In this document: piece by piece, positions 44,422-59,576 of the stretch | Numbering within the stretch: position 1 is the stretch's first letter | How the letters are laid out: each line of letters starts with the position of its first letter | Assembly: GCF_023150065.1 (NCBI RefSeq) | Contig: NZ_JAKLLN010000003.1 | Location: forward strand, 238,142 to 302,141 | Length of the DNA stretch: 64,000 nucleotides | Direction of reading: 5' to 3' | Source: Zoogloea sp. | GTDB taxonomy: Bacteria > Pseudomonadota > Gammaproteobacteria > Burkholderiales > Rhodocyclaceae | Position numbers and translations under genes: made by a program | Notes under the pieces: generated by a model | Database searches by the model: none | What the model was told of the DNA's origin: nothing | The model's input: the letters and a program-made list of their open reading frames with translations, nothing else

Positions 44422-45120
44422 TCACGGCTCGGGAACGAACCGATAGCCGATGCCCGGTTCGGTCACGATGTGGTCCGGGTTGGCCGGGTCGACTTCCAGT
44501 TTCTTGCGCAAGTGCCCCATGTAAACGCGGACGTAGTGGCTGTCCTCGGCATGGGACGGCCCCCACACCGCCTTGAGCAGTTGTCGATGAGTCAACACAC
44601 TATCGGGATTGGCCGCCAGGTAGGCCAGCAGGCGAAACTCGATGGGCGTCAGGTGCACTTGCTGCCCGTCTCTTTCGACCCAGCGCCGGCCCAGATCAAG
44701 CCGGATCGCGCCAAAGGCCATCAAGCTGGGCCCACCAGTGCCTGCACGCTGTCGCCGCCGCAGATGGGCGCGGATGCGGGCCAGCAGCTCCGCCGATCCG
44801 AACGGTTTAGTAAGGTAATCGTCGGCACCGGCATCCAGGGCGGCCACTTTCTCCGCTTCCGCCGTACGTGCTGACAAAACGATGATCGGGATTTCCGACC
44901 AGGTGCGCAGGTCGCGGATCAGGTCGATGCCATCGCCATCCGGCAACCCGAGATCAAGCACCACGAGATCGGGTTTCCGCGTTCCCGTTTCGATAAGGCC
45001 GCGCTTGACCGAATCGGCCTCGAAGACGTCACAGCCTTCGGCCTCCAGGGCCAGTCGCACGAATCGGCGGAGATTGACTTCGTCCTCGACGACGATCACC
45101 GTCGGAGCAGGGTGGGACAT
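44422..45120 (-). CDS. kdpE: Kdp operon response regulator
   Basis: The protein has 232 residues. Receiver: VVEDEVNLRRF, D56 in LVVLDLGLPDGDG, T in VLSARTAE and K in YLTKPFG. OmpR-type winged helix: LTPIEFRLLAYLAANPDSVLTHRQLL, VRVYMGHLRKKLE and VTEPGIGYRF. KdpE activates the kdp promoter when phosphorylated by KdpD. It is the last gene of the operon, 19 nt after kdpD, and convergent with the exported beta-strand gene. Confidence 0.95.
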   Translation of the reverse strand: MSHPAPTVIVVEDEVNLRRFVRLALEAEGCDVFEADSVKRGLIETGTRKPDLVVLDLGLPDGDGIDLIRDLRTWSEIPIIVLSARTAEAEKVAALDAGADDYLTKPFGSAELLARIRAHLRRRQRAGTGGPSLMAFGAIRLDLGRRWVERDGQQVHLTPIEFRLLAYLAANPDSVLTHRQLLKAVWGPSHAEDSHYVRVYMGHLRKKLEVDPANPDHIVTEPGIGYRFVPEP

Positions 45121-45139
45121 GGCTATTCCTTGTGGTCTG

Positions 45140-47857
45140 TCAGGCTACCCCATCCGCTTCGTCGGCCACGAGCGTTGGTGGCGACCCCAGGGGCAGGGTG
45201 AAGTTGAAGCAGGCTCCGCCGCCGGGGCGCTGCCTTGCAGTGATGGTGCCGCCATGAGCCTCGACGATGGCTCGGCTTATTGCCAGCCCCAGACCGACCC
45301 CGGGTGTGCTGCCCTCCGGCTGGCCTCGCTCGAACTTCTTGAATATCGCCTCCTCGCGCCCAGCAGGCAAACCCGGCCCGTCGTCCTCGAGGCACACCTC
45401 CATTCGGGTATCCGCCGTGGCGGCTCGGATCCAGATATGGCTGCCCGGCGGCGTGTACTTCAGCGCGTTCTCGAGCAGATTGCAGAACACCCGCTGCATC
45501 AGCACCGAGTCCACCTCGACAAGGGGGAGGTCTTCATCCAGCTTCACCCTGAGCTGATGATCGCCAAGCGCCGGGCGCAGGCTCTTGAGGGCACTGCCGA
45601 TCACCTCCTCGATGGGCTGCCACTGACGATTCAGTTGAACCCGGCCGGCTTGCAGCCGAGCCATGTCGAGCAGGTTGTCCACCTGGGCGTTGATCAGCAG
45701 GGCCTGCTCGCGCAGCTTGCGAGAGATGGCGGCTTGCGCGTCACTCGGCGGCGGCCGGGTCAGAAACATGGAGTCCGCCAGCCCGATCATGACACTCAGC
45801 GGGGTGCGCAGATCATGGGAAATGGCGGAAAGCAGGGAGTTGCGCAGGCGCTCCGACTCCATCTGGACGGTGCTCTCCTGGGCCACGACGACGTAATGCA
45901 CTCGTTCCAGGGCAATGGCGATCAGCGACGCGAAGGTCTCCAGCAGACGTCGCTGCTCGGGAATGAGAAGACGTGCCGGATTGCGCATTTCCAGGGCCAG
46001 CACCCCACGCAGGCGCATGGGTGCCTTGAGGGGCAGGTAAAGGACCGGGCTGGCGGGTAGCGTATCGGTCCCCTGTCCAGCGGGCTCGGCGTGGTCGAAG
46101 GCCCACTGGGCAATGCCGGGATCGATCTCGGGCAGCCCCGCAGAGGCAAAGATGGGGGCTTGCAGGTGGTCGACGTCATCAGTGAGCAGGAAGGCCGAGC
46201 GGGCACCCATCTCTGCCACCAGAAAGCGCTCGCCAATCTCGGCAATCTGCTCCGGCAGCAAGGCTGCGGAGAGGTCTCGCGACATTTCGTAGAGCGCCCT
46301 GACACGGCTCGCCCGGCTACCTGCGACATACGCCTGATACTTGTACCCGGCGGTAAGCTGGCCCACCACCAAACCCACGACCAGCATCACGGCGAAGGTC
46401 ATCAGGTACTGAACGTCGCTGACCGCGAAGGACATCCGTGGCGGGACGAAGAAGAAGTCGAAGATGGCCACACTCAAGAAGGAGGCCATCACGGCAGGGC
46501 CCCGGCCGAAGCGCACCGCCACGAACACGACACCGAGCAGGAAGACCATGACAATGTTGGCCAGATCAAACAGCGGATGCAGTGGGGTGGCAAGCAGCCC
46601 GGCCAGGCCACACACCACGACGGTCAAGGCGTAGGCACGCCAATCGGCCGCGAGCTGGCCTGTGGGCCGTTGTGAAAGGCCTTCGGTGACGGGCACACGC
46701 CCATCCGCACGCGCCACTTGGATGACATCCAGATCCGGAGCGATCTGTCCGATCCGGTCGGCCACCGAGCGCGTCCAGGCACGCCAGAGCGATGGCTCGT
46801 CCCGGCCGACCATGATCCGGGAGAGGTTGTTGGCACGGGCGTAATGCACCGCCTCATCTTCAACCTTCGTGCCAGCAACGGTTGCAGTGGTGGCACCAAG
46901 CTCCTCGGCCAGCTTGAGTGTTTTCAGGATGCGCTCTCGGCTGCCGGCCGACAGGCGCTGGCGATCCGGGGTCTCCACATGGATCGCATGCCAGGGCGCC
47001 TCGAGGCGGCCGGCAATGCGCGCGGCGGTACGCACGATCTTCTCGCTCCCTGCGCCGGGCCCGATGCAGGCCAGCAGTGAATCCTGGGTCTGCCAGACGG
47101 GGGACACCAGCCGGTCACGCCGGTACTGCTGCACGTCATCGTCCACCCGGTCGGCCGTACGGCGCAGAGCCAGTTCGCGCAGGGCCAGCAGATTGCCCTT
47201 GCGGAAGAAGTTACGGATCGCCCGTTCCGCCTGATTCGGCAGATAGACCTTGCCGTCCCGGAGGCGCTCCAGCAGCTCATCCGGCGGGAGGTCCACCAGA
47301 ACGACCTCGTCGGCATCATCGAAGACCTTGTCCGGCACAGTCTCCCAGACGCGGATGCCGGTGATGCCGCTGACCACGTCGTTGAGGCTCTCCAGGTGCT
47401 GGACATTGACGGTGGAATACACGTCGATGCCGGCCGCGAGCAGCTCGTCCACGTCGTGCCAGCGCTTGGGGTGGCGCGACCCCGCGACATTGGAATGGGC
47501 CAACTCGTCCATCAGGATGAGCGCCGGTTTGCGCACCAGGGCCCGATCCAGATCAAACTCGGCCAGTATGCGCCCCCGGTAGGGCACCTCCACCATCGCA
47601 AGGCGCTCGATACCGTCGGCCATCGCCTCCGTTTCCATGCGCCCATGGGTTTCAACCACGCCGATGACCACATCAACTCCCTGGATGAGTTGCTGGCGCG
47701 CCGCCGCGAGCATGGCGCATGTCTTGCCGACGCCGGCGGAGGCGCCGAAGAAGATCTTCAGACGGCCGCGACCGGCACGCGCCTCGTCCTGCTGCACCCG
47801 CACGAGGAGCGCGTCCGGATCGGGGCGGCCCTTGTCCGGGGTATCACCGAGGGCCAT
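45140..47857 (-). CDS. kdpD: Kdp sensor kinase
   Basis: The protein has 905 residues. The N-terminal KdpD domain has Walker A GASAGVGKT and the family segment DELAHSNVAGSRHPKRWHDV; a universal-stress-type domain follows (LACIGPGAGSEKIVR). Four membrane helices lie at about 415-510, then a GAF-like region, HisKA with H681 in ISHDLRTPLSVMIGLADSM and an ATPase domain (NLLENALKYTPPG, EDDGPGLPAG, GVGLGLAISRAI). It senses K+ shortage and controls KdpE. The ATG at 47857 (MALGDTPDKG) is two bases after the stop of the CorA-like gene. In E. coli EIIA(Ntr) binds KdpD; an EIIA(Ntr)-like gene is in this same operon. Confidence 0.94.
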   Translation of the reverse strand: MALGDTPDKGRPDPDALLVRVQQDEARAGRGRLKIFFGASAGVGKTCAMLAAARQQLIQGVDVVIGVVETHGRMETEAMADGIERLAMVEVPYRGRILAEFDLDRALVRKPALILMDELAHSNVAGSRHPKRWHDVDELLAAGIDVYSTVNVQHLESLNDVVSGITGIRVWETVPDKVFDDADEVVLVDLPPDELLERLRDGKVYLPNQAERAIRNFFRKGNLLALRELALRRTADRVDDDVQQYRRDRLVSPVWQTQDSLLACIGPGAGSEKIVRTAARIAGRLEAPWHAIHVETPDRQRLSAGSRERILKTLKLAEELGATTATVAGTKVEDEAVHYARANNLSRIMVGRDEPSLWRAWTRSVADRIGQIAPDLDVIQVARADGRVPVTEGLSQRPTGQLAADWRAYALTVVVCGLAGLLATPLHPLFDLANIVMVFLLGVVFVAVRFGRGPAVMASFLSVAIFDFFFVPPRMSFAVSDVQYLMTFAVMLVVGLVVGQLTAGYKYQAYVAGSRASRVRALYEMSRDLSAALLPEQIAEIGERFLVAEMGARSAFLLTDDVDHLQAPIFASAGLPEIDPGIAQWAFDHAEPAGQGTDTLPASPVLYLPLKAPMRLRGVLALEMRNPARLLIPEQRRLLETFASLIAIALERVHYVVVAQESTVQMESERLRNSLLSAISHDLRTPLSVMIGLADSMFLTRPPPSDAQAAISRKLREQALLINAQVDNLLDMARLQAGRVQLNRQWQPIEEVIGSALKSLRPALGDHQLRVKLDEDLPLVEVDSVLMQRVFCNLLENALKYTPPGSHIWIRAATADTRMEVCLEDDGPGLPAGREEAIFKKFERGQPEGSTPGVGLGLAISRAIVEAHGGTITARQRPGGGACFNFTLPLGSPPTLVADEADGVA

Positions 47858-47859
47858 GC

Positions 47860-49494
47860 CTATTGCTCCGGCTTCCTGAACACGCGAGCCAGGGAAGACC
47901 ACTTGGCGCGGAGATCGAGACGCTCGTCGGACATGGCCTCCAGGAAATCCGAGAGTCGTTTGGAGCGCGCAACGGCAAACAGCACCAGCCCCAGGGCCGC
48001 CCCCGTGACCAGGCTGAACTGCAGCAGCTTGCGCGACTCCGGCACCTCCGGGAAGCTGAACAGGTTCATCCCGAAGTAGCCGGTCACCACGGTGGCAATC
48101 AGGCCGAAGATGGTCACCACGGTGAGTCGCAGCACCGTGCCGGACTGGCGCCGCTGGCTGTCGCTGTCCAGGTAGGCGCTCATCTCGCGGACCTGCTCCT
48201 TCACGTCGGAGAACAGTTCGTCATTGCGCAGCAGGCGTGTGGTGCGCTGGAAGAGTGCCTGCACCAGACCCTGCTCGGAGACCTCGTGAAACCAGTAACG
48301 ATGGGTGAAGCGCAGGAAGGTCTCGAAAGACTGGCGGATGCGGCGCTTGAAGCGACGTACCGACTCACTGTCACGAATATCAAGATCATTGACGGCACTG
48401 GCCAACCCGTCCGAGAAAGAAAGGAGGGCGGCACGATGGAAATGGGCAATCAGGAAAACGAGAAAGTACTGGTGCCGGAAGCGCGCCAGAAAGCCATGGT
48501 CCGCATCACGGAAGTAGTCCGATCCGGCTTCGCCCACCAGCATCAGCGCGTTCCCTGTGCAGATGAAGCGGGTATTGGGCCCGCCATCCGCCCCGGTCCA
48601 GTAGCGATCCTCGCAGTGCAGCCGTTCAAAGCGGACCACCGCCGGGTCGCGCAGCGGCACCGGATCGCGGGACGGCAAGTTGGCCGCGAAACCGATGCGG
48701 ATGAAATCCTCCCGGCTCAGGCTGCGTGGGTCGTCGAGGGCCAGGTAGGCCATTGTCGGCATCCGGTAATACTCGATCAAGCGGAAACGCAGCTCGCTGG
48801 CCTGCTCCTCCTGGTCGAGCACCAGCGGGCGCAGCAGCCAGGCCCACAGGGCACCGACACAGGGGGCCCGGTTCCTGCACACGAAATGCAGGTAACGCTC
48901 CCGGTTCTCGGAGTCGGAGCTGGCGAGCACCCGCCCCTGTCGGTCCAGCAACTCGGAGCGGTGCACGTTGTGCACACCCTGCCCGCCCGTATCCCAACCC
49001 GTCGGGTAGGCCCGCCCGAAGCGGTAGAGCAGCTCCAGTGCGGTAGCGAGGGGCAGATCGTCGGCAGCGACTTCCACGTTGAGCAGGGCCACATCCATGT
49101 CGAGGAAGAGATACAGGTCGACATGCGCCACGCGCAGAGGGATCGGCGTATCGCCCGCTTGGGGGGTGACATTCAGGCCGGCCACGTCGGTGCGCCGGAA
49201 GACGGCCATCGGTGCGGCCTGCCGGGCCTGTCCGCCCGGGGTGCTCGAGCGGCTGTCACCGTACAGAAAGCGCTGCACGTAGGGCAGAAAGGCCACGAAT
49301 TCCTTGTAATGACGTTCCTGAAAGTCTGCGGGATCGGCCGTGAATTCATCGTCGACGGGGCTCCACTGACCATCGGCGGTCATCAAATCACGAATGTGGG
49401 CCACGTTCTCGCCCGAGAAGCCTGGGCGGATCTGGACCGGCCACACCAGTACATCCCGGAAATGGCGAACAAGGTGGTCTGGCTGTGAAAGCAT
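47860..49494 (-). CDS. CorA-like membrane protein with GMN motif, inside the kdp operon
   Basis: The protein has 544 residues. A large soluble N-terminal part (about 1-450) ends in a long helical segment (LFSDVKEQVREMSAYLDSDSQRRQSG), then two membrane helices, the first closing with YFGMNLF (G475, M476, N477), the signature selectivity loop of CorA-type Mg2+ channels, the second at about 490-512. The tail is basic. CorA proteins are usually about 320 residues; the extra N-terminal length suggests a different regulatory or sensing part. I chose the ATG at 49494, preceded by GAGGAG. Two bases separate it from kdpD. It may move or sense divalent cations together with K+ control; the transported ion is unproven. 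Confidence 0.8.
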   Translation of the reverse strand: MLSQPDHLVRHFRDVLVWPVQIRPGFSGENVAHIRDLMTADGQWSPVDDEFTADPADFQERHYKEFVAFLPYVQRFLYGDSRSSTPGGQARQAAPMAVFRRTDVAGLNVTPQAGDTPIPLRVAHVDLYLFLDMDVALLNVEVAADDLPLATALELLYRFGRAYPTGWDTGGQGVHNVHRSELLDRQGRVLASSDSENRERYLHFVCRNRAPCVGALWAWLLRPLVLDQEEQASELRFRLIEYYRMPTMAYLALDDPRSLSREDFIRIGFAANLPSRDPVPLRDPAVVRFERLHCEDRYWTGADGGPNTRFICTGNALMLVGEAGSDYFRDADHGFLARFRHQYFLVFLIAHFHRAALLSFSDGLASAVNDLDIRDSESVRRFKRRIRQSFETFLRFTHRYWFHEVSEQGLVQALFQRTTRLLRNDELFSDVKEQVREMSAYLDSDSQRRQSGTVLRLTVVTIFGLIATVVTGYFGMNLFSFPEVPESRKLLQFSLVTGAALGLVLFAVARSKRLSDFLEAMSDERLDLRAKWSSLARVFRKPEQ

Positions 49495-49555
49495 GCATCT
49501 CCTCTTCTCACCGGCGGGTTGCGTGAAGTCCGTTCGCCGGTGGTGCGCCCGGACA

Positions 49556-49762
49556 TCATGCACCAGTCTTCTCCCGCAGCCCTTGTCCGACGGGGGAGAC
49601 GGCGGATTCCGCCATTGCGGCAAGTGTGCGCTGGCGGGCGAGTGCAGCCAGTGCCACCTTGCATTTTGGCGAGCATGTCAGCGCATACCCACAGGCAAGA
49701 CGATGAAGCACCACCGAGACTTCATGCCGGGCACCACATACCGGACACACATGGACAGGCAT
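49556..49762 (-). CDS. Small zinc-ribbon-like protein
   Basis: The protein has 68 residues. Cysteine pairs CPVC near the N-terminus and CSPKC around residue 30, with a further cysteine between (LHRLACGYALT), suggest a small zinc-binding knuckle; the C-terminus is helical and charged. The ATG at 49762 lies three bases after the preceding stop, so translation is probably coupled. No family is recognised. Strand, spacing and position support membership of the kdp operon. The reading is less certain than for the larger genes. Confidence 0.5.
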   Translation of the reverse strand: MPVHVCPVCGARHEVSVVLHRLACGYALTCSPKCKVALAALARQRTLAAMAESAVSPVGQGLREKTGA

Positions 49763-49765
49763 GCG

Positions 49766-50068
49766 TCACAGGGCCCGCGCGGCATAACGCGCCAAGGCGA
49801 CCGGATGGTCCGCCACCCTCCCAGCCACGATATAGATATCGCACCTCTCGGCGGGGCCCACGGCGAAGGCCAGACCCATCGCAGCATCGCCGGAAACCGC
49901 GAGGCGCAAGGGGCGACTCTGGCCGGCCAGGAAGACCCGCAAGGCCGCGCGCCCCAACTGAGACACCGGAAAGCGGACGTGCTCGGGTGTGCCCGAAGCA
50001 TCAAGGGTGGCCACCTCGCAGGTGTTCTTGCATGCGACGACTCCAACGCATAGATCAGCAGGACTCAC
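49766..50068 (-). CDS. Small protein resembling the IS110 transposase N-terminal domain
   Basis: The protein has 100 residues and starts at a GTG behind GAGGAG. The order VGVVACKNTCEVATLDASG, FPVSQLGRAALRVFLAG, RLAVSGDAAMGLAFAVG, CDIYIVAG and PVALARYA parallels the N-terminal RuvC-like (DEDD) domain of IS110 transposases, where the usual reading is IGIDVSK, then ALEATG. The first catalytic aspartate is missing (VACK replaces DVSK), and no second domain or IS ends follow. It is therefore a short, probably inactive or repurposed relative. Resemblance is judged by eye. It lies between the EIIA gene and the zinc-ribbon gene in the kdp operon. Confidence 0.5.
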   Translation of the reverse strand: MSPADLCVGVVACKNTCEVATLDASGTPEHVRFPVSQLGRAALRVFLAGQSRPLRLAVSGDAAMGLAFAVGPAERCDIYIVAGRVADHPVALARYAARAL

Positions 50069-50217
50069 GTTTCATCTCCTCTTTCATCGGGTGACAGATA
50101 TAGCGCACTCCTGGCGACCACTCCGGCAATGCCGTCCGGGAAAACCAAGGTACCCCGGCTTTCGCAGCCCAGTATTGCAGGCAGCACGTCGGGACGCTGC
50201 GCATTGACCCCGAGCAC
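50065..50217 (-). CDS. Possible 50-residue peptide in the kdp operon
   Basis: A GTG at 50217, after an AGGGG at short spacing, opens a frame of 50 codons ending PDERGDET. Its TGA overlaps the GTG of the next gene by four bases (GTGA), a sign of coupling. It fills the otherwise longest gap in the operon (184 nt). The composition is ordinary for a coding region (VLPAILG, GTLVFPDGIAGVVARSALYL). No family is recognised. The alternative is a non-coding leader for the downstream gene. Confidence 0.35.
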   Translation of the reverse strand: MLGVNAQRPDVLPAILGCESRGTLVFPDGIAGVVARSALYLSPDERGDET

Positions 50218-50252
50218 AGCCCCTGCACCCGATCACAGCGCGCGAACGAGAC

Positions 50253-50717
50253 TCACGCTGCGGCCGCCAGCCAGGACCGGAACAGCGCCTGGATTGCGTA
50301 GGGATCATCGCAGGCATGCAGTGCATCGCGAAAGCGTGGGTCAGTGAAGAGGCTGGATACACTGGCGAGAATCCCCAGGTGTGTGTCGGTGGCGCGCTCG
50401 GGAAGAAGGAGCACGATGAAGTCCGACACGGGCTTGCCATCGGGCGACTGGAAGGGCATGGGACGTCGGGGCCTCACGTAAGCTGCGTGGCTCTGGTTCA
50501 GCCCCTTGATTCGACCGTGGGGAATCGCCACCCCCAAGCCGAGCGCCGTGGAACCAAAGGCCTCCCGTTGCGCCAGGGCCCCGGCAACCACCACACGGGG
50601 CAGCCCATGCCAGCGCTGCATGGTCTGGCCGACCTCATCGAAAAGCCCTGCAGCACCGCTGACCTCAAGATCAAGCAGGATGTCTTCCGGAAGCAGGATG
50701 TCGGCAATCGAGATCAT
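50253..50717 (-). CDS. PTS EIIA(Ntr)/fructose-type protein in the kdp operon
   Basis: The protein has 154 residues. The fold and active site match EIIA(Ntr)/EIIA(Fru): an N-terminal ILLPEDILLDLEV, TALGLGVAIPHGRIKG with phosphorylatable H67, and FIVLLLPERATDTHLGILASVSSLF, close to the PtsN pattern of HL..LA.LA.lf. I chose the ATG at 50717 because GGAGG is eight bases upstream; starts at 50723 and 50738 are also open. In E. coli the PtsN phosphorylation state controls both TrkA and KdpD. A dedicated paralogue inside kdp would couple K+ uptake to the nitrogen PTS. The usual ptsN neighbours (rpoN, hpf) are absent. Confidence 0.85.
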   Translation of the reverse strand: MISIADILLPEDILLDLEVSGAAGLFDEVGQTMQRWHGLPRVVVAGALAQREAFGSTALGLGVAIPHGRIKGLNQSHAAYVRPRRPMPFQSPDGKPVSDFIVLLLPERATDTHLGILASVSSLFTDPRFRDALHACDDPYAIQALFRSWLAAAA

Positions 50718-50738
50718 GTTCATGTCCTCCACATCCAC

Positions 50739-51608
50739 TCAGAAGCTTCGAGCGATCGAGAGAACGATCACCCCCCGGCCCGCATCGCGGCTGCGCGAAC
50801 CGTTCCCGCTGCCATCGCTGCCCATGCTGCTGCTGAAGCAGTAGAACTCGCCATTGGAACAGCGTCCCTGCGCATTACTGCCTACGTAGCTGGCGCCGGC
50901 GATCCAGCCCGAGATGTCCTTGGTGACACCAATGCGCCAGTCTGAATAGCGGCCGTCATCGGTCGATCCATCGGCATTGCGATAAGAGAAGTCACGCAGC
51001 AGCAAATGTCCGACATGTGCGCCGAGCACATAGCCATTGCCCAGGTCGTGGGCGGCCGAGAGATCCACGTAGCCGCTTCCCCGGGTGCCCGGCATCGAGA
51101 AATAGTCCGTGACGGCGTGCGAGTACTTCAGGGTCAGGAAGCGCCATGTCCCCGCGAGGTAAAGCTCGCCGTTATTGACCCCACCGTTGGCGGCCTTGCC
51201 CGGGTGGCGCCGATTGACGCCAGCAAAGGCGTTCTCCAGCCGCGTCCCGGGGTAGTGGTAATACAGCGCCCCCATATCCAGGCCGACATCACCCACGCGG
51301 GTCTTGTAGCCTGCATAGAAATCCATCTCCAGGCTGCCTTCCGGATAGCCTGCACCACTGCTCACATTGGAGTTCCAGTTGCCGGCGTACAGCCCGGATG
51401 CGTGGGTGTAATCGAATCCACCCTGCACGGCCGGCTTGCCAAAGGTCTGATCAAGCCCGCGGAAGCGGTAGCTGCTGAAGAGCCCCGCATTGGCCGTCAG
51501 CGAGGACGGGGAGGAGGCCCCTTCCGCGTCCTGCTGCGCGTGGGCGGGTGAATGGAAAGTGGTGGCGGCAAGGGCCAGCACGGCAAGGCGTTGGATTGTG
51601 TTCGACAT
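50739..51608 (-). CDS. TorF-family putative porin in the kdp operon
   Basis: The protein has 289 residues. A signal peptide (MSNTIQRLAVLALAATTFHSPAHA) precedes an outer-membrane barrel with the TorF/Gcw_chp start LTANAGLFSSYRFRGLDQTFGKPAVQGGFDY (in two strands) and later YAGNWNSNVS and MDFYAGYKTRVGDVGLDMGALYYHYPG. It ends in SIARSF, a terminal phenylalanine. Family members are presumed porins of unknown specificity. It lies 19 nt after kdpC and 21 nt before the EIIA gene, so it should be made with the K+ pump and may help K+ cross the outer membrane. That role is inferred from location. Confidence 0.85.
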   Translation of the reverse strand: MSNTIQRLAVLALAATTFHSPAHAQQDAEGASSPSSLTANAGLFSSYRFRGLDQTFGKPAVQGGFDYTHASGLYAGNWNSNVSSGAGYPEGSLEMDFYAGYKTRVGDVGLDMGALYYHYPGTRLENAFAGVNRRHPGKAANGGVNNGELYLAGTWRFLTLKYSHAVTDYFSMPGTRGSGYVDLSAAHDLGNGYVLGAHVGHLLLRDFSYRNADGSTDDGRYSDWRIGVTKDISGWIAGASYVGSNAQGRCSNGEFYCFSSSMGSDGSGNGSRSRDAGRGVIVLSIARSF

Positions 51609-51627
51609 GTTCTTTCGTGCCCCCTGT

Positions 51628-52203
51628 TCAGTGCTCAAGCGCATCCAGCGCCAGGTTGAGCTTCAGTACGTTGACCCGCGCCTCGCCGAGCAGCCCCCAT
51701 TGGCGCCCCTCCGTGTGGGCATCGACCAGCGCCTTGATCTGCGCCTCCGGCAGGCCACGCGCCAGCGCCACCCGTCCCGCCTGCCACAGGGCAGCAGCCG
51801 GACTGATGTGGGGGTCGAGACCGCTGGCAGAGGCCGTCACAAGGTCGGCGGGTATGGGACGGGAATTGTTTGGGTCTGCGGCTCGTAGCGCCTCGACACG
51901 GCCTTTCACCGCGTCAACCAGAGCCGGGTTGAGGGGCCCCTGGTTGGAGCCGGACGAGGCGGTCGCGTTATAGGGCTGGGGAGCGGTGGCGGATGGACGC
52001 CCCCAGAAGTGCTTCGGGTCACTGAAGTGCTGGCCGATCAGGCTCGACCCGACGGGCTTTCCGCCCTGGAGGATCAAGCTGCCCGCGGCCTGTTCCGGAA
52101 AGATTGCACCGGCAATACCGGTGACAGCCAGCGGATAGGCAAGGCCGGTGATGGTGCTGAGCAGCACGAATACGCTGAGGGCGGGGCGCAGGAGGGATTG
52201 CAT
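51628..52203 (-). CDS. kdpC: K+-transporting ATPase subunit KdpC
   Basis: The protein has 191 residues. One N-terminal membrane helix (about 8-30) carries a periplasmic domain with [22 protein letters not shown] and the closing segment [11 protein letters not shown], both characteristic of KdpC. It stabilises the KdpFABC complex and aids nucleotide and K+ affinity. It starts 16 nt after kdp[21 protein letters not shown] is the conserved core. Confidence 0.95.
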
Positions 52204-52219
52204 GGTGATGTCTCCAGGT

Positions 52220-54337
52220 TCAGGCCATGCCGGTGGCGGCCAGGATGAGGTCGATAAGCTTGATCCCCACGAAGGGCACCAGGATGCCGCCGAGGCCGTA
52301 GATGGCCAGATTGCGACGCAGCAGCGCGGCGGCCCCGACGGGGCGATAGGACACGCCCTTGAGTGCCAGGGGGATCAGGAACACGATGATCAGCGCGTTG
52401 AAGATCACCGCCGAAAGGATGGCCGACCCCGGGCTGCTGAGCCCCATCACGTTGAGGGCAGCCAGCTGGGGATAGGTGCCGACGAAGGCCGCCGGAATGA
52501 TCGCGAAATACTTGGCGATGTCGTTGGCAATGCTGAAGGTGGTCAGTGAGCCCCGTGTCATCAGCATCTGCTTGCCGGTCTCCACCACCTCGATGAGCTT
52601 GGTGGGGTTGGAGTCCAGGTCCACCATGTTGCCGGCCTCCTTGGCGGCCTGGGTACCGGTGTTCATGGCCACCGCCACGTCGGCCTGGGCCAGCGCCGGG
52701 GCATCGTTGGTACCGTCGCCGGTCATCGCCACCAGGCGGCCTTCGGCCTGGTACTGGCGGATCAGCGCCAGCTTGGCTTCCGGTGTGGCCTCCGACAGAA
52801 AGTCGTCCACCCCGGCCTCCGCGGCGATGGCGGCGGCCGTCACGCGGTTGTCGCCCGTCACCATCACGGTCTTGATGCCCATCCGGCGCAGCTCGGCAAA
52901 GCGCTCCTTGATGCCGCCCTTGACGATGTCCTTGAGTTCGATCACGCCGAGAACGCGCTTCCCCTCCGACACCACCAGCGGTGTGCTGCCACGGCGTGCC
53001 ACCTCCTCGACCCGGGCACTGACCGAGGCCGGGAAGCTGCCCCCCAGGCTTTCCACATGGCGCCGGATCGCATCGGTTGCGCCCTTCCGGATCTGCTTGA
53101 CTGCGGCCACGGTCGTGGCGCCTTCGCTGCCCGGCGCGCCTCCGATATCCACGCCGCTCATGCGCGTCTGGGCAGAGAAATGCACGAAATGGGCGTCGAG
53201 GGCGTGAATGTCCCGCTCGCGCAGCGAATATTTCTGTTTGGCCAACACAACGATGCTGCGGCCTTCGGGTGTTTCGTCCGCAAGGGAGGCGAGCTGGGCG
53301 GCATCGGCCAACTCCGCATCGCTGACACCATCCGCCGGCAAAAAGGCCGAGGCCTGGCGGTTGCCGAGGGTGATCGTCCCGGTCTTGTCCATCAGCAGCA
53401 CATCCACGTCGCCCGCCGCCTCCACGGCCCGGCCGGATGTGGCGATCACGTTGGCCTGCATCATGCGGCTCATGCCGGCCACGCCGATTGCCGACAGCAG
53501 GCCGGCGATAGTGGTGGGGATCAGGCACACCAGCAGAGCCACCAGCACCGTCACGCCGACCGGCTTTCCGGCACCGGACACGTCCACGCTGAACAGGGAG
53601 AAGGGCAGCAGCGTTACGGTAACCCCCAGGAAAACAATGGTCAGGGCCACCAGCAGGATGGTCAGTGCGATCTCATTGGGGGTCTTCTGGCGCTTGGCGT
53701 TTTCCACCATGGCGATCATGCGGTCCACGAAAGTCTCGCCGGGGTTGGCGGTGACACGCACGACGATCCAGTCCGACAGCACACGGGTGCCGCCGGTCAC
53801 CGCCGAGAAGTCACCGCCCGATTCCCGGATGACTGGAGCTGACTCACCGGTAATGGCCGATTCATCCACCGAGGCAACGCCCTCGATGACTTCGCCGTCG
53901 GCAGGGATGACCGACTGGCCGATGTCGCCGGCCTCGACCACGACGATGTCGCCCTTGCGCAGATCGCCGCCCTGCACCAGCTGCCACGGGGCGCCGTAGT
54001 GGGGCGCCTGCAGCTTCTTGGCCCAGGTCTCCTTCTTGAGCCCGCGCAGCGATGCAGCCTGGGCCTTGCTGCGGCCCTCGGCCAAGGCTTCCGCAAAATT
54101 GGCAAAGAGCACGGTGAACCAGAGCCAAAGGGCGATGGCGACGACGAAGCCGGCCGGCGCTTCACCTTCGCCAGCCAGCGCCTGGATGGCCAGCAAGGTG
54201 GTCAGGATGCTGCCCACGTACACCACGAACATCACGGGGTTGTGCCACTGCACCGCCGGACTGAGCTTGCGGAAAGCTTCGCGCAGCGCCGGCACCACCA
54301 GGGCGGGATCAAAAAGTGTAAAGGTCTTGTTGCTCAT
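52220..54337 (-). CDS. kdpB: K+-transporting P-type ATPase subunit KdpB
   Basis: The protein has 705 residues. It is the catalytic P-type ATPase of KdpFABC. Conserved sites are TGESAPV (actuator domain), [11 protein letters not shown] (phosphorylated Asp), [24 protein letters not shown] (hinge) and KADEERFxx-like membrane regions. The helices that contact KdpA are seen near the N-terminus and at 215-285. ATP hydrolysis here drives K+ through KdpA. GAGGAGA precedes the ATG, ten bases after kdpA. Confidence 0.97.
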
Positions 54338-54347
54338 GTCATTCTCC

Positions 54348-56147
54348 TCAGGCCGTCATCCACAGCATCAGGTGCTCGACCACCGGCCCCAGGGCCAGTG
54401 CCGGCACGTAGTTGAGCAAGCCCACCAGTAACACCGTGCCGATCAGCAGGGTGACAAAGAGCGGACCGTGGGTCGGCATCGTTCCCGCGCCCACCGGAAT
54501 CCGTTTCTTGGCAGCCAGAGAACCCGCCATGGCCAGCACCGGCACGATCACGCCAAATCGTCCGAACCACATGGCGATGCCCAGCAGGACGTTGTAGAAG
54601 GGGGTGTTGGCGGACAGGCCCGCGAAGGCACTGCCGTTGTTGTTGGCGGCCGACGTGAGGGCGTACAGGATTTCGGAAAAACCATGGGCCCCCGGATTGG
54701 CGATGCCTGCGCGGCCGGCTTCGGTGGTCACCGCGATGGCTGTGCCCAGCAGCACGAGCAAGGGCGTCACGAGAATGGCGATGGCGCTCATCTTCATCTC
54801 GTAGGCTTCAATCTTCTTGCCCAGATACTCCGGGGTACGGCCAATCATCAGGCCGGAGATGAATACGGCCAGGATGGCAAACACCAGCATGCCGTAGAGA
54901 CCCGTGCCGACACCGCCAAATACCACCTCACCAAGCTGCATGTTGGCCAGGGGCACCAGCCCTCCGAGAGGGGTGAATGAGTCATGCATGGCGTTGACCG
55001 CTCCACAGGAGGCGGCCGTGGTGACGGTCGCAAAAAGCGCGGAACTGGCGATGCCGAAGCGGACCTCCTTGCCCTCCATGTTCCCGCCCGATTGCAGCGC
55101 GCTGACGCCCTGATCGACGCCCAGTGCAGCAACCAGCGGATTGCCCTGCTGCTCGAAGCGCATTGCGCCCCAGGCCATGAACACGAACATCAGGGTCATG
55201 GCGGAGAGCACGGCCCACCCCTGACGTTCATCTCCCACCATTCGCCCGAAAGACAGGCACAGGGCGGCCGGTATCAGGAAGATCGCCAGCATCTCGATGA
55301 GATTGGTGAGCGGCGTGGGGTTTTCGAAGGGATGGGCCGAATTGGCATTGAAGAAGCCGCCACCGTTGGTGCCGAGCATCTTGATGGCCTCCTGGGAAGC
55401 GACCGGCCCCATGGCGAGGGTCTGGGTACGGGTTTCGGCAGGCTTCGTCAGGGGGCTGCCCTTGTCGTCCTTCAGGGCCTGCCCATCCGCATCGAACAGC
55501 GGTGCGTCGTAACGGGTGACCTCCACCGTCGTCACGTCGCGATAGGCGTCGAGGTTCTGGATCACCCCCTGGCTGACCAGCAGCACGGCGATCAGGACAG
55601 ACAGCGGCAACAACAGGTACAACGTTGCCCGGGTCAGATCCACCCAGGCGTTCCCGAGCGTGGCGGTGCTGTGACGGGCGATGCCACGGATCAGGGCAAT
55701 CACCACGACAATGCCCGTAGCCGCGGAAAGAAAGTTCTGCACGGTCAGGCCAAGCATCTGGACCAGGTAGCCCATCGTCGATTCGCCGGCATAGCCCTGC
55801 CAGTTCGTATTGGTCACGAAGCTGATGGCCGTGTTGAAGGCCGAATCCGGTGCAACAGCGGCCATGTGCTCAGGATTGAGAGGCAGTCCGGCCTGGAGTC
55901 GCTGAAGCGCGTAAACCGCCACGACACCCAGGGCATTGAACAGCAAGAGGGCGAGCGCATAGCGCAAGCCGCCCATCTCCTCGTCGGCCTTCACGCCGCT
56001 CAGGCGATACAGGATGTTTTCCACCGGGCGGGCGCGATGGAAACGTCCTTCCATGACGTAAGCGATGTAGCGGCCGAGGGGTTTGGCCGACAACAGCAGC
56101 GCCGCCAGGAAAACCCCCAACAGAAGCCAGGCATTGGAGGTCATCAT
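54348..56147 (-). CDS. kdpA: K+-transporting ATPase channel subunit KdpA
   Basis: The protein has 599 residues and about ten membrane helices. It is a TrkH/KtrB-like K+ channel subunit that binds K+ from the periplasm. Filter regions include [35 protein letters not shown], and [14 protein letters not shown]; the phrase [16 protein letters not shown] is typical. The ATG at 56147 overlaps the kdpF stop (ATGA) with GGAGG seven bases upstream. Confidence 0.97.
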
Positions 56148-56236
56148 GAGAAGTCCTCCGGCTTGAGAAGCGCCACCAGCAAATAGACGAGCAGCGCAGC
56201 GGCCGCAATGGCCCCAAGGACATAAGGCCAGCTCAT
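56144..56236 (-). CDS. kdpF: K+-transporting ATPase small subunit KdpF
   Basis: A 30-residue single membrane helix: [20 protein letters not shown] continuing to ALLKPEDFS. Length, one helix and the closing LLKPE(D/R)F match KdpF, which stabilises the Kdp complex. It overlaps kdpA by four bases (ATGA) and is itself overlapped by the preceding 30-residue frame. Confidence 0.9.
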
Positions 56237-56325
56237 TTCTGGTCTCCCAGACGGTCGCATCCGACCGCGAGCCCCATCACCAATGCCAGGAAGACGGCGG
56301 TGATGGCGAGATAAACGAGATCCAT
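56233..56325 (-). CDS. 30-residue membrane peptide, first gene of the kdp operon
   Basis: An ATG at 56325, after AAGGGGA, opens a 30-codon frame: [20 protein letters not shown] then [10 protein letters not shown]. It would be a single membrane helix with a short charged tail. Its TGA overlaps the kdpF ATG by four bases. Very short membrane peptides with a similar start (MDL.YL) and a CDRL-type tail are, as I recall, found before kdpF in other Proteobacteria without a known role. It may be a Kdp accessory subunit or a translational leader. Confidence 0.65.
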
Positions 56326-56605
56326 GAATTCCCCTTTCGGTTCGAACTATTCGGCCTCTTCATGCTAGGGAAGAGGGCATCAAAAAATTCGAAAAAGGGG
56401 AGGGCTGCAGATAAAGGACTTGTAAAAATGGGGGGCACCGCCACGAAGACAGGCGGATTGACCCGACCGGAATGCACCATCCGGTGGGTTGCAGGGAAAA
56501 GGGAAACGGAAGGACGAGGGGCGTCGGCCCACGCTTTCGCTCGCTGGAGCGAGCTCACTCACCCCAAAACGGGGGACTCAGGCAGGACGCCTCATCTTGC
56601 CGCGC
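56326..56605 (-). promoter_or_regulatory. kdp promoter region; also mnmE 3' hairpins
   Basis: No gene is seen in these 280 bases. The side near kdp is AT-rich; on the minus strand TTTTTACAAGTCCTTTAT (about 56412-56429) and TTTTTCGAATTTTTT (56383-56398) resemble the T-rich, A-rich target of KdpE. On the mnmE side two stems appear: CCCC-GTTTT-GGGG (56562-56574) and GCTCGCT/AGCGAGC (56539-56554), neither with a U-run. The promoter call is by position only. Confidence 0.4.
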
Positions 56606-57952
56606 TTACTTCCCTATACAAAAACGCGAAAAGATCACCCCCAGCAGATCATCCGGGGTGAACTCCCCGGTGATCTCATTGACCGCCTCCTGGGCCAGGC
56701 GCAGCTCTTCGGCCATCAGCTCGAGGGCGTGGCGGGCATCCAGGGCAGCCTCGACCCGGGCCAGGGCTTCGCGCAGGGCGATGAGGTGACGCTCGCGGGC
56801 GAGGATCACGTCCTCCCCGTGGCGGTGCCAGCCTGCCACCCGCAGCAGCTCGGCACGCAGCAGCTCGACGCCCTGATCGGCCTTGGCGGAGAGGTAGAGG
56901 CTGATGCCGGCAGCGTCCTCGGTGCGCCCGGGCTGACGCGCCAGCAGGTCCACCTTGTTGAAGACGGTGATGCGCTCAACCCCCGCCGGCAGGCGGGCAT
57001 CGATGGCGGCGTCGGCATCGGTGAGACCGGCCCGCACGTCCACCAGGCGCACCACCACGTCGGCACGCTCGATCTCCTGCCAGGTGCGGGCAATGCCAAT
57101 CTTCTCGACTTCGTCGGTGGTGTCGCGCAGCCCGGCGGTGTCGGTGATGTGCAGCGGGATGCCCTCGATCTGGATGGTCTCGCGCAGGGCGTCGCGGGTG
57201 GTGCCGGCGATGTCGGTGACGATGGCCCGCTCCTCACCGGCGAGCCGGTTGAGCAGGCTGGACTTGCCGACGTTGGGCTGCCCCACCAGCACCACGTGCA
57301 GGCCATTGCGCAGCAGGCTGCCCTGGCGCGCCCGGTCGAGGATGGCACGCAGCTCGGCGGCCACCACCTCGATGCGCTCGAAGGCCCTGGCCTCGATCAG
57401 GAAATCCACGTCCTCGTCAGGAAAATCGAGGGTCGCCTCGACCAGCATGCGCAGGTCGATCAGGCGGTCACACAGCCCCTGGACTTCGCGGGAGAAACTG
57501 CCGGTGAGGGAGCGGACCGCCGAGCGGGCCGCAGCGGCCGTGGAGGCCTCGATGAGATCGGCAACGCTTTCGGCCTGGGCCAGGTCGAGCTTGCCGTTGA
57601 GGAAGGCCCGGCGGGTGAATTCGCCGGGTTCGGCGAGACGGGCGCCCAGCTCGAGGCAGCGGGTCAGCAGCATCTGCATGACCACCGGGCCGCCGTGGCC
57701 CTGGAGCTCGATGACGTCTTCGCCGGTAAAGGAGTTGGGCGCCGGGAAGTAGAGGAGGAGGCCTTCGTCGATCAGCCCGCCGCTGCCGTCCCGGAAGCGG
57801 GCAAACTGGGCGATCCGGGCTTGCGGCTCGCGGCCGCCGAGAGTGGCCGCGAGCGGGGAGAGACTCGGTCCGGAGATCCGGACCACGCCGATGCCACCGC
57901 GCCCGGGGGCGGTGGCAATCGCCGCAATGGGCTCACTCGGCCGGCTTGCCAC
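56606..57952 (-). CDS. mnmE: tRNA uridine-5-carboxymethylaminomethyl GTPase MnmE
   Basis: The protein has 448 residues. An N-terminal folate-binding domain ([15 protein letters not shown]), helical domain ([19 protein letters not shown]; split between two helices) and inserted G domain with G1 [10 protein letters not shown]2 GTTRD, G3 DTAG and G4 NKVD are in order. The essential C-terminal FCIGK is intact. With MnmG it modifies the wobble uridine of several tRNAs. It starts at a GTG overlapping the yidC 3' end by 20 nt. Confidence 0.95.
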
Positions 57953-59576
57953 CGGCCGCGATCATCCGGTTGATCTGCCATTGCTGGGCAATGGACAGGG
58001 TGTTGTTGACCACCCAGTACAGCACCAGACCGGCCGGGAACCACAGGAACATGAAGGTAAAGAGGATGGGCATCATCATCATCACCTTGGCCTGGATGGG
58101 ATCAGGCGGCGCCGGGTTGAGCTTCATCTGGATGAAGCTGGTGGCACCCATGATCAGCGGCAGGATGTAGAACGGGTCCTTGACCGACAGATCGTGGATC
58201 CAGCCCAGCCAGGGGGCGCCACGCATCTCCACGACACCCAGCAACACCCAGTAGAGGGCGATGAACACCGGGATCTGGATCAGGATGGGCAGACAGCCGC
58301 CGAGGGGGTTCACCTTCTCGCGCTTGTACAGATCCATCATGGCCTGCTGCATCTTCATCTTGTCGTCGCCGTACTGCTCCTTCAGGCGCTGCAGACGCGG
58401 GCCGAGGGTCTTCATCTTGGCCATCGACTTGTAGCTGGCGGCCGACAGGGGGAAGAACAGGGCCTTCAGGGCGATGGTGACCAGGATGATGGCCCAGCCC
58501 CAGTTGCCGGTGAGCTTGTGGAACCACTCCAGCACCCAGAACAGCGGCGCGGCAATGATGGTCAGCCAGCCGTAGTCCACCACCAGGTCGAAGCCCTTGG
58601 CGAACTGTTCGAGGCGGCTCTGCTCCTGGGGGCCGGCGTACAGCGGCATGGACAGCTTGCCGCTCTGGCCCGGGGCGATGGCGGCCACCGGCACGATCAC
58701 ACCGGCAGAGTAGAGGTCGGAGCTCACCTGGTTGGCGAAGAACTCGCGCTCACCCTCGGCAGGCGCCCAGCCGGCCACGAAGTAGTGCTGCACCATCGCC
58801 GCCCAGCCGTCGGAGGCCTTGGTGACGAACTTGGCCTTCTTCGAGGCGATGTCCTCGAAGGAGACCTTCTGGTACTTCTCGGCTTCGGTGTAGAAGGCCG
58901 GGCCGGTGAAGGTCTGCACGCCGAAACCACCGGGCTGCTCCGCCGGCTTGCCGTCACGGGTGAACTGGAAGTAGGCGTGGGGCGCCAGGGCGGCAGCGCT
59001 GCCGTTGGCGATCTCGTAGCTCACATCGGCCACGTAGCTGCCACGCCGGAAGGTGATCAGCTTGCTGACCTTGACACCGTCGGCGGTGGCCGGCGCGTCG
59101 AGGCGCAGGGTCACGGCATCCTCGCCGTCCTTCAGCTCGAGGCTGGAGGCCGCCAGGTTGAACAGGGTCTTGTGATTGGGCAGGCCATTGCCGATCAGGC
59201 CGGTCTGCGCGGCGTAGCTGTGCTTTTCGCCGTTGTCGAAGAGCACGTAGTTGCGCGTGGGATCTTCGGAGGCCTTGTGACGGGTCAGCTCGAGCCGGAC
59301 GATGTCGCCACCCTGGGCCGAGACTTCCGCCACCAGCACATCGGTGCGGATGATGGCCTTGGGTGCCGCAGCCGGCGCTGCCGCCGTGGCATTCTGGCCG
59401 GGCAGGGCGGTGCCGGCCGCCGCAGCGCCCGGCGTCGGCGTGGGAACACCGGCAGCAGAGTTGGCCGTCGCGGCTACGGCCGGGACCGGGGGCTTGTTGT
59501 GCTTCTGCCAGCCGTCCCACAGCATGACCAGGGAAAACGAGAAGACGAGAAGGAGGATCAGACGACGGTTGTCCAT
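57933..59576 (-). CDS. yidC: Membrane protein insertase YidC
   Basis: The protein has 547 residues. An N-terminal helix ([16 protein letters not shown]), a large periplasmic domain with an Ala/Pro-rich linker, and a five-helix core ([32 protein letters not shown], split around helix 2; [45 protein letters not shown] likewise) match YidC1 of Gram-negatives. It inserts and folds inner-membrane proteins, alone or with SecYEG. The ATG at 59576 lies 51 nt after yidD. Confidence 0.96.

Follow-up and report, generated by a model that had tools for sequence, protein, structure and literature searches.

In Zoogloea sp., the kdp locus carries an additional set of genes between kdpC and kdpD, and we consider it probable that the whole forms an extended potassium (K+) starvation locus controlled by KdpE, in which a paralogue of the phosphotransferase system (PTS) protein EIIA(Ntr) modulates the sensor kinase KdpD. 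The window, by which we mean the whole stretch of DNA that was analysed, is 64 kb of a Zoogloea sp. contig, and the kdpC-kdpD interval is referred to as the slot. Kdp is the textbook high-affinity K+ pump, and a conserved operon of this kind would name candidates for a porin that takes K+ across the outer membrane at scarcity, for a dedicated EIIA linking PTS(Ntr) to KdpD, and for a CorA-like partner. Direct support comes from the gene content, the conservation of the set, a KdpE-type promoter pattern, a separate EIIA clade with a conserved histidine, and the presence of HPr-like and EI-like genes. Comparison of the loci suggests that the extra genes are a recurring potassium-starvation kit and not a one-off insertion.

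Organization of the kdp locus

All genes of the locus lie on the minus strand, in the order kdpF, kdpA, kdpB, kdpC, TorF porin, EIIA, orf100, orf68, a CorA-like protein of 544 amino acids (aa; CorA544), kdpD and kdpE. The six kdp genes keep their canonical order on this one strand and are interrupted only between kdpC and kdpD. The genes named in the original prediction, which had been made from the window alone, were all recovered on this strand at the coordinates it gave.

A hydrophobic leader gene of 30 residues, read from the sequence (56233..56325), precedes kdpF (56144..56236; 30 residues), which overlaps both the leader gene and kdpA by 4 nucleotides (nt). Leader-like open reading frames (ORFs) of 29-30 residues were found in 11 of the 13 loci looked at, L108 and L109 being without one. 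The pump genes continue with kdpA (54348..56147; TIGR00680, 786 bits), kdpB (52220..54337; 705 aa, matching ORFs that lie between kdpA and kdpC in relatives) and kdpC (51628..52203; PF02669, 2e-74). The slot opens with the TorF-family (gcw_chp) porin (50739..51608; PF09694, 1.6e-46; TIGR02001 over its cut-off), whose ORF opens at 51644 with a likely start at 51608, and the EIIA(Ntr) paralogue with an IPHGR motif (50253..50738; PF00359, 1.5e-20). These are followed by the C-terminal remnant of an acetylglutamate-kinase-like gene (50068..50259), recognized by tblastn to locus L101, and by orf100 (49766..50068; 100 residues), for which an AlphaFold2 (AF2) model and Foldseek predict a RuvC-like fold. 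The last two genes of the slot are orf68 (49556..49762), Zn-ribbon-like by the pattern of four cysteines in its homologues, and CorA544 (47860..49494), a CorA-superfamily protein with a GMN motif (PF01544, 2e-8). The locus ends with kdpD (45140..47857; NF007793 over its cut-off), in which KdpD, DUF4118, GAF, HisKA and HATPase domains score over cut-off and Usp is weak, and kdpE (44422..45120; NF007820 over its cut-off). The original prediction had counted two or three tiny genes in the slot. Two of these, orf100 and orf68, were borne out, while the third, a tiny ORF at about 50217-50065, was rejected as a separate gene since it is this kinase-like remnant, which has an internal stop.

Gaps in the slot measure 19 nt from kdpC to the porin, 0 or 15 nt from the porin to EIIA depending on the start codon, 3 nt from orf100 to orf68, 61 nt from orf68 to CorA544 and 2 nt from CorA544 to kdpD; the sole long one is the 184 nt between EIIA and orf100. 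No terminator-like site falls in the slot gaps, and the eight such sites between 43.5 and 57 kb are about the level of shuffled sequence (7.0, standard deviation 2.5). No Rfam family reached its gathering score in the same interval.

Recurrence of the set in other kdp loci

Within the order, KdpC was found in 101 of 300 genomes and 99 regions were fetched, with three fragmentary matches and the window itself excluded. Kdp loci had been said to run with nothing between kdpC and kdpD as a rule, and this holds: among the 84 regions with a downstream kdpD on the same strand, the gap is at most 500 nt in 68 and larger in 16. The window's own family is represented by nine listed genomes, four of which have KdpC; the slot contains the porin, orf100 and orf68 in all four and EIIA in three. 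At the CorA position, L030 has a canonical CorA of 321 aa and L027 and L071 have none.

Across the phylum, KdpC was found in 134 of 398 genomes, 115 of them outside the order by hand count, and 80 regions from 79 of these 115 genomes were hand-picked to thin large families, so that they do not represent a random draw. The pooled survey comprised 179 kdp regions, genes being counted inside the kdp locus and up to 1.5 kb from it. TorF porins share the strand of kdp in 26 cases and lie on the other strand in 2; the corresponding figures are 10 and 0 for EIIA and 4 and 1 for CorA (binomial p of 3e-6 for the porin and 0.002 for EIIA, for regions that are related and not independent). Other genes of the kinds found in slots were orf68-like (7, that of L017 being weak), BBP2-type porin (3), orf100 (3) and PII-like (1). 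The set of porin, EIIA, orf100, orf68, CorA and kdpD occurs in Zoogloea, the cultured Z. dura G-4-1-14 (L109) included, and in the Thiobacillaceae loci L151, L161 and L162, with parts of it in other loci. The original prediction was to be abandoned if the arrangement proved confined to this one genome, and it is not: Zoogloea loci retain it, and it is met again in other families.

A KdpE-type promoter pattern upstream of the locus

Passages of PMC3264566 describe the KdpE box of E. coli as TTTATA/TTTACA half-sites 5 bp apart upstream of kdp, and the half-site repeat TTTATA-N5-TTTACA given there was used as the search motif. With up to two mismatches allowed, a single match was found in the window, upstream of the whole locus: TTTACA-N5-TTTATC at 56410..56426 on the minus strand, with one mismatch, 84 nt before the leader gene. 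A -10-like TAGCAT (56362..56367, minus strand) lies exactly 42 nt past this box. Nine of nine Zoogloea-clade kdp loci (L101, L104-L106, L108-L111 and L153) have a box at the same position, and no second KdpE-type box is present in the slot of the window. The original prediction had envisaged one K+-response module running from the outer membrane to the kinase. Because the sole box stands upstream, is kept in all nine loci, and is joined by neither a terminator-like site nor a second box in the slot, such a module is supported as a genomic unit, the set of genes itself being conserved as well; its co-transcription and control by K+ are what we infer from this arrangement.

The layout resembles that of canonical E. 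coli kdpFABCDE in having kdpFABC and then kdpDE on one strand with a KdpE box upstream, as E. coli is described in the passages of PMC3264566, and differs in the five intact genes and one broken gene that Zoogloea has between kdpC and kdpD. The 197 oriented loci gave, upstream of kdpA, 93 boxes with no more than one mismatch. Where a kdpA-upstream box had a -10 matching at least four of six positions in the range of 36-49 nt, the spacing was exactly 42 nt in 42 of 62 cases, many of the loci being related. Four relatives (L005, L023, L030 and L172) also have a box within the slot, L023 having been included by hand as its kdpD is off the contig. The best -10 is at 42 nt for all four of these slot boxes versus none of 15 boxes elsewhere; that of L172 is poor (TATGAA). 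In L030 the box and its -10 stand between EIIA and orf100. Shuffles of the slot at local composition gave a box in 3 of 400 cases for L030, 12 of 400 for L172 and 0 of 400 for L005. The spacing of box, 42 nt and -10 may offer a sharp promoter signature for KdpE targets. PII-like genes were observed in the slots of L005 (9223-9546) and L172 (9401-9706), each behind a KdpE-type box with the best -10 at 42 nt; they score 22.2 and 17.7 bits, below the Pfam cut-off of 25. We do not claim a KdpE promoter before the EIIA genes of family f21, where one box (L075) was found without a good -10 at 42 nt.

The EIIA paralogue and its possible link to KdpD

The slot EIIA scored 74 bits against PTS_EIIA_2 (PF00359; Pfam cut-off 27) and 90.4 bits against the PtsN equivalog TIGR01419, below the cut-off of 138.7, and is therefore a paralogue and not PtsN proper. 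The window genome has two EIIA genes, the second of which lies elsewhere and scores higher; likewise, 11 of 11 genomes checked with a kdp-linked EIIA carry a higher-scoring EIIA elsewhere. In a tree of 40 rows, from which L293 was dropped because it scored too low, a single clade (96/92) holds the kdp-linked EIIAs of the order, namely those of Zoogloea, Thiobacillaceae, f1 and f21, and canonical PtsN lies outside it. The active-site histidine of the PH motif is present in all 25 of the kdp-linked EIIAs that the tree set contains. The genome has one HPr-like and one EI-like match, side by side, the EI-like frame being 595 aa long, and with both genes present a phosphorylation chain can exist.

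EIIA(Ntr) proteins are known to act on KdpD. In the passages available, binding to KdpD is described for the PtsN of E. coli and of Rhizobium (PMC3665714), and for S. fredii both PtsN1 and PtsN2 are described as binding the GAF domain of KdpD (PMC9239096). The Zoogloea protein is like the PtsN of the E. coli, Rhizobium, Sinorhizobium and Pseudomonas systems, as described in part in these sources, in its conserved histidine. It differs in that the effect there is mainly that of rpoN-linked PtsN, whereas the Zoogloea protein is an additional kdp-linked paralogue, for which an interaction with KdpD is proposed. A second ptsN (ptsN2) is reported in an operon with kdpABCDE in about 10% of alphaproteobacterial genomes in the passages of a 2026 review (PMC13104625), an arrangement that likewise has a second EIIA(Ntr) encoded with kdp. 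From these passages and those of PMC9239096, a link between kdp and EIIA is already known in Alphaproteobacteria; neither set of passages mentions a betaproteobacterial kdp-linked EIIA. In our survey, EIIA follows kdpE in L186, L193, L212 and L217, which belong to another class of the phylum, presumably Alphaproteobacteria. These four differ from the Zoogloea arrangement in the position of EIIA after kdpE and in its place in the EIIA tree, where they cluster, on long branches, with the PtsN of their own class; no porin, orf100, orf68 or CorA was seen in the four regions. The kinds of part are known, and what is new is the betaproteobacterial combination with a porin, a CorA-like protein, a kinase-like gene, a RuvC-fold protein and a Zn-ribbon. 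Judging from titles and abstract openings, none of the papers listed by the literature searches deals with a kdp operon that contains a porin or a CorA-like or PII-like gene; these searches likewise turned up no published account of the combination, of the kinase-like gene or the RuvC-fold protein in this setting, or of porins and CorA-family proteins occurring there repeatedly.

The porin and the CorA-like protein

The porin scored 156.6 bits against TIGR02001 (cut-off 47.15), which makes it a TorF family putative porin, and it ends in a C-terminal F. Elsewhere, kdp-linked porins also lie upstream of kdpA or between kdpB and kdpC, and in the porin tree they do not form one clade. One group (SH-aLRT 100) unites those of Zoogloea, L027, L030 and Azonexaceae; the three other TorF genes of the window genome lie outside it, and one of these three is placed with kdp-linked porins from elsewhere in the tree. 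The slot porin of L071 is on a different branch. BBP2 (OmpL-like) porins were also observed adjoining kdp in L172 (7851-8984), L006, L020 and L033.

CorA544 scored 34.4 bits against PF01544 (cut-off 27), placing it in the CorA superfamily, and 12.8 against TIGR00383, the CorA Mg2+ transporter equivalog, for which the cut-off is 200.75. The GMN motif is invariant in 42 of 42 homologues. The AF2 model (mean pLDDT 78.5) has two C-terminal helices, and its top Foldseek matches among solved structures are CorA, nine of them with E <=0.001, with TM-scores that are low (0.16-0.21 on the query). CorA544 is therefore like the CorA Mg2+ channel in the PF01544 C-terminal part, the motif and the two helices, and unlike it in the larger N-terminal part of its 544 residues.

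Contexts were compared for the best 80 of 360 confirmed CorA544 matches, in which the nearest named relatives are Zoogloea with up to 95% identity. Of these 80 loci, 18 have a full kdp locus with CorA544 before kdpD, 10 a partial one and 52 none, 37 of the latter having 5 kb or more of upstream and 3 kb or more of downstream sequence. Among the partial loci, CorA544 is followed by kdpD in L103 (cut upstream), KdpD-KdpE come before CorA in L140, and in five the only kdp match is a KdpD-like ORF on the opposite strand. No neighbour shared by the kdp-free loci was seen by eye in the nine that were read. On the CorA544 tree, 22 labels are kdp, 38 are not and 23 tips are unlabelled, and the kdp label changes seven times (at least six by starred branches), two of the changes being inside Zoogloea. 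These changes may be gains or losses, and we do not claim repeated recruitment from the tree alone. Three kinds of CorA-family gene occupy the slot, namely CorA544 (L013, L018), the canonical CorA of L030 (PF01544, 3.2e-52) and a 368-aa protein in L003, and the separate arrival of CorA genes is better shown by L030 and L003 than by the tree.

A broken kinase-like gene and two small genes

L101, the closest relative, has a gene of 272 residues between EIIA and orf100, and L105 has one of 275 residues. The remnant in the window matches the end of the L101 gene (72% identity, 65 aa) and has a stop inside. The L101 and L105 proteins both score over the AA_kinase cut-off of 24.9 (PF00696; 48.9 bits, 9.1e-13, for L101 and 33.2 bits, 5.8e-8, for L105) and resemble acetylglutamate kinase and acetylglutamate synthase, under the equivalog cut-offs; against TIGR00761 they reach 77.4 and 65.2, respectively, versus 151.3, and the N-terminal K-x-GG motif is absent. 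The lysine of this motif has a catalytic role in acetylglutamate kinase. The solved acetylglutamate kinase 2buf aligns to residues 18-247 in two pieces, with its N-terminal VIKYGGN corresponding to VIDYERS in L101. Since VIDYERS stands in place of VIKYGG, the L101 protein is, judging from its sequence, probably catalytically dead. The gene is whole in L101, L105, L106, L109 and L111, whereas L104, L108, L110 and the window have it in fragmented form; no match to it was found in L153 or in the Thiobacillaceae loci. In f21, a kinase-like gene with 25-32% identity directly follows the kdp-linked EIIA in L040, L044, L075 and L084; the pair of EIIA and kinase-like gene is therefore kdp-linked in two families. 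L084 has two such pairs near kdp genes.

Pfam gave no match for orf100 and only sub-threshold matches for orf68, so fold prediction was required. The orf100 model (pLDDT 85.5) has the fold E-E-E-H-E-H-E-H, and all 11 of its top Foldseek matches belong to IS621 and ISCro4, recombinases of the IS110 family (TM-score on the query 0.68-0.79; E 1e-5 to 4e-4). The predicted fold is thus like the RuvC-like domain of IS110 recombinases, from which orf100 differs in being only 100 residues long and in having no conserved acidic residue: in an alignment of 16 rows, 11 columns are invariant and 9 nearly so, and none of these 20 is D or E, so that orf100 is not an active IS110-type nuclease. An orf100 profile matched 8 of the 300 genomes of the order with E <=0.001, four of them strongly and in kdp loci. 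Two weaker matches in genome G103 look real, one (L270) just upstream of kdpD and the other (L274) with no kdp match in its 3.2 kb. Weak matches in G152, G102 and G298 and a second one in the window's own genome look like chance and were set aside; they sit in ORFs that we take to resemble glycerol-3-phosphate-dehydrogenase and others. In orf68, the four cysteines of CP[VI]C ... C-x3-C are kept in 21 of 21 homologues of the fetched loci. The locus would tie both small protein families to K+ physiology. In L144, a Hydrogenophilales metagenome-assembled genome, we observed two orf100-orf68 pairs and CorA544 followed by a KdpC-like ORF, with KdpD/KdpE-like ORFs on the opposite strand; this is a rearranged kdp locus.

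A model for the extended locus and its alternatives

In the reading that we favour, KdpD and KdpE would turn on the operon at low K+ from a single KdpE-dependent promoter at about 56.36 kb, and the KdpFABC pump would be made from it. The TorF porin would let K+ pass the outer membrane, and the kdp-dedicated EIIA, by binding to KdpD, would adjust the activity of this kinase to the PTS phosphorylation state. The products of orf100 and orf68 may be small accessory proteins, the CorA-like protein may adjust or sense divalent cations, and KdpD and KdpE would be encoded last in the same operon. The binding of EIIA to KdpD and the transport roles are, like co-transcription and control by K+, what we infer.

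Several observations weigh against this model. The kdpC-kdpD junction leaves no room for an insertion in 68 of the 84 regions of the order, and the set is a mosaic where it does occur: EIIA is missing from L071, L141, L143, L147 and L135. In addition, the porin and EIIA are truncated in L153, and the slot CorA gene of L005, a canonical one, is on the opposite strand. CorA544 is mostly not linked to kdp (52 of the best 80 matches out of 360), and L102 and L107, which belong to the Zoogloea clade, have it with no kdp gene in the available flanks, so that the link is breakable even in this clade. The box of the window is weak on its own, as at least one match arose in 27 of 100 shuffles, and no upstream box with up to two mismatches was found in 7 of 22 loci (L112, L161, L162, L141, L147, L135 and L071). 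The EI-like frame of 595 aa is presumably too short for a GAF-bearing EI(Ntr). Finally, P. putida PtsN is active when phosphorylated (PMC13104625, in the passages available), and the sign of regulation should therefore not be assumed here.

The mosaic nature of the set, the kinase-like gene broken in several Zoogloea, the many kdp operons without an insertion and the kdp-free CorA544 of L102 and L107 would all be expected if the slot had received passive or mobile insertions, the junction being tolerant and the genes functionally unrelated to K+ uptake. We regard this as improbable, the least so far favoured of the alternatives, given the strand bias of porin and EIIA, the drawing of the same gene kinds from different subfamilies, the porins that also lie before kdpA and between kdpB and kdpC, and the KdpE-type promoter patterns within the slots of relatives; in addition, there is no transposase among the scanned ORFs and no Rfam family in the region. 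A somewhat better, still unlikely, account holds that EIIA, the kinase-like protein where intact and orf100/orf68 make up a nitrogen-status sensor that gates KdpD and ties K+ uptake to glutamate supply, with the porin and the CorA-like protein secondary. It draws on the adjacency of EIIA and the kinase-like gene in Zoogloea and f21 and on the PII-like genes (below the Pfam cut-off) in the same slot of L005 and L172, and it is countered by the broken state of the kinase-like gene in the window, L104, L108 and L110 and by its lack of a match in the Thiobacillaceae loci.

The alternative that we take most seriously, while holding it to be less likely than a single operon, divides the locus into two units: kdpFABC, porin and EIIA under the KdpE promoter, and orf100, orf68, CorA544 and kdpDE under a promoter of their own, possibly constitutive, within the 184-nt gap, in which case the sensor pair and the CorA-like protein would be made at all K+ levels. 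This gap is the only long one in the slot, L030 has its box and -10 in the equivalent place between EIIA and orf100, and a putative start before kdpC is described for Caulobacter in the passages of PMC8552747. In the window, however, the gap has no box within two mismatches and no sigma-70-like site, and its length is accounted for by the gene remnant.

Beyond the KdpE-controlled locus in Zoogloea, we tentatively put forward a broader idea, namely that the kdpC-kdpD slot of Betaproteobacteria could be an evolutionary docking site. It might have taken up nitrogen/carbon-status signalling proteins (the kdp-dedicated EIIA, a catalytically altered acetylglutamate-kinase-like protein and PII-like proteins), envelope ion proteins (TorF or BBP2 porins and CorA-family proteins) and two small, little-known families (IS110-like RuvC-fold and Zn-ribbon) under a KdpE promoter of box, 42 nt and -10, to which some slots would add another such promoter. 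If this were true, K+ scavenging would be set jointly with the permeability of the outer membrane, the balance of divalent cations and glutamate/nitrogen status.

Other features of the loci

A small hydrophobic protein of the GPLLALLVI type is encoded in the kdp slot of L005, L009, L016, L071 and L172; it is ahead of the Zn-ribbon in L005 and in the same frame as the Zn-ribbon in L009 and L016. In L086, L089, L091 and L092 the pump genes are arranged kdpA-kdpC-kdpB. Upstream of the kdp locus in the window, on the same strand, lie mnmE and yidC (56606-59576).

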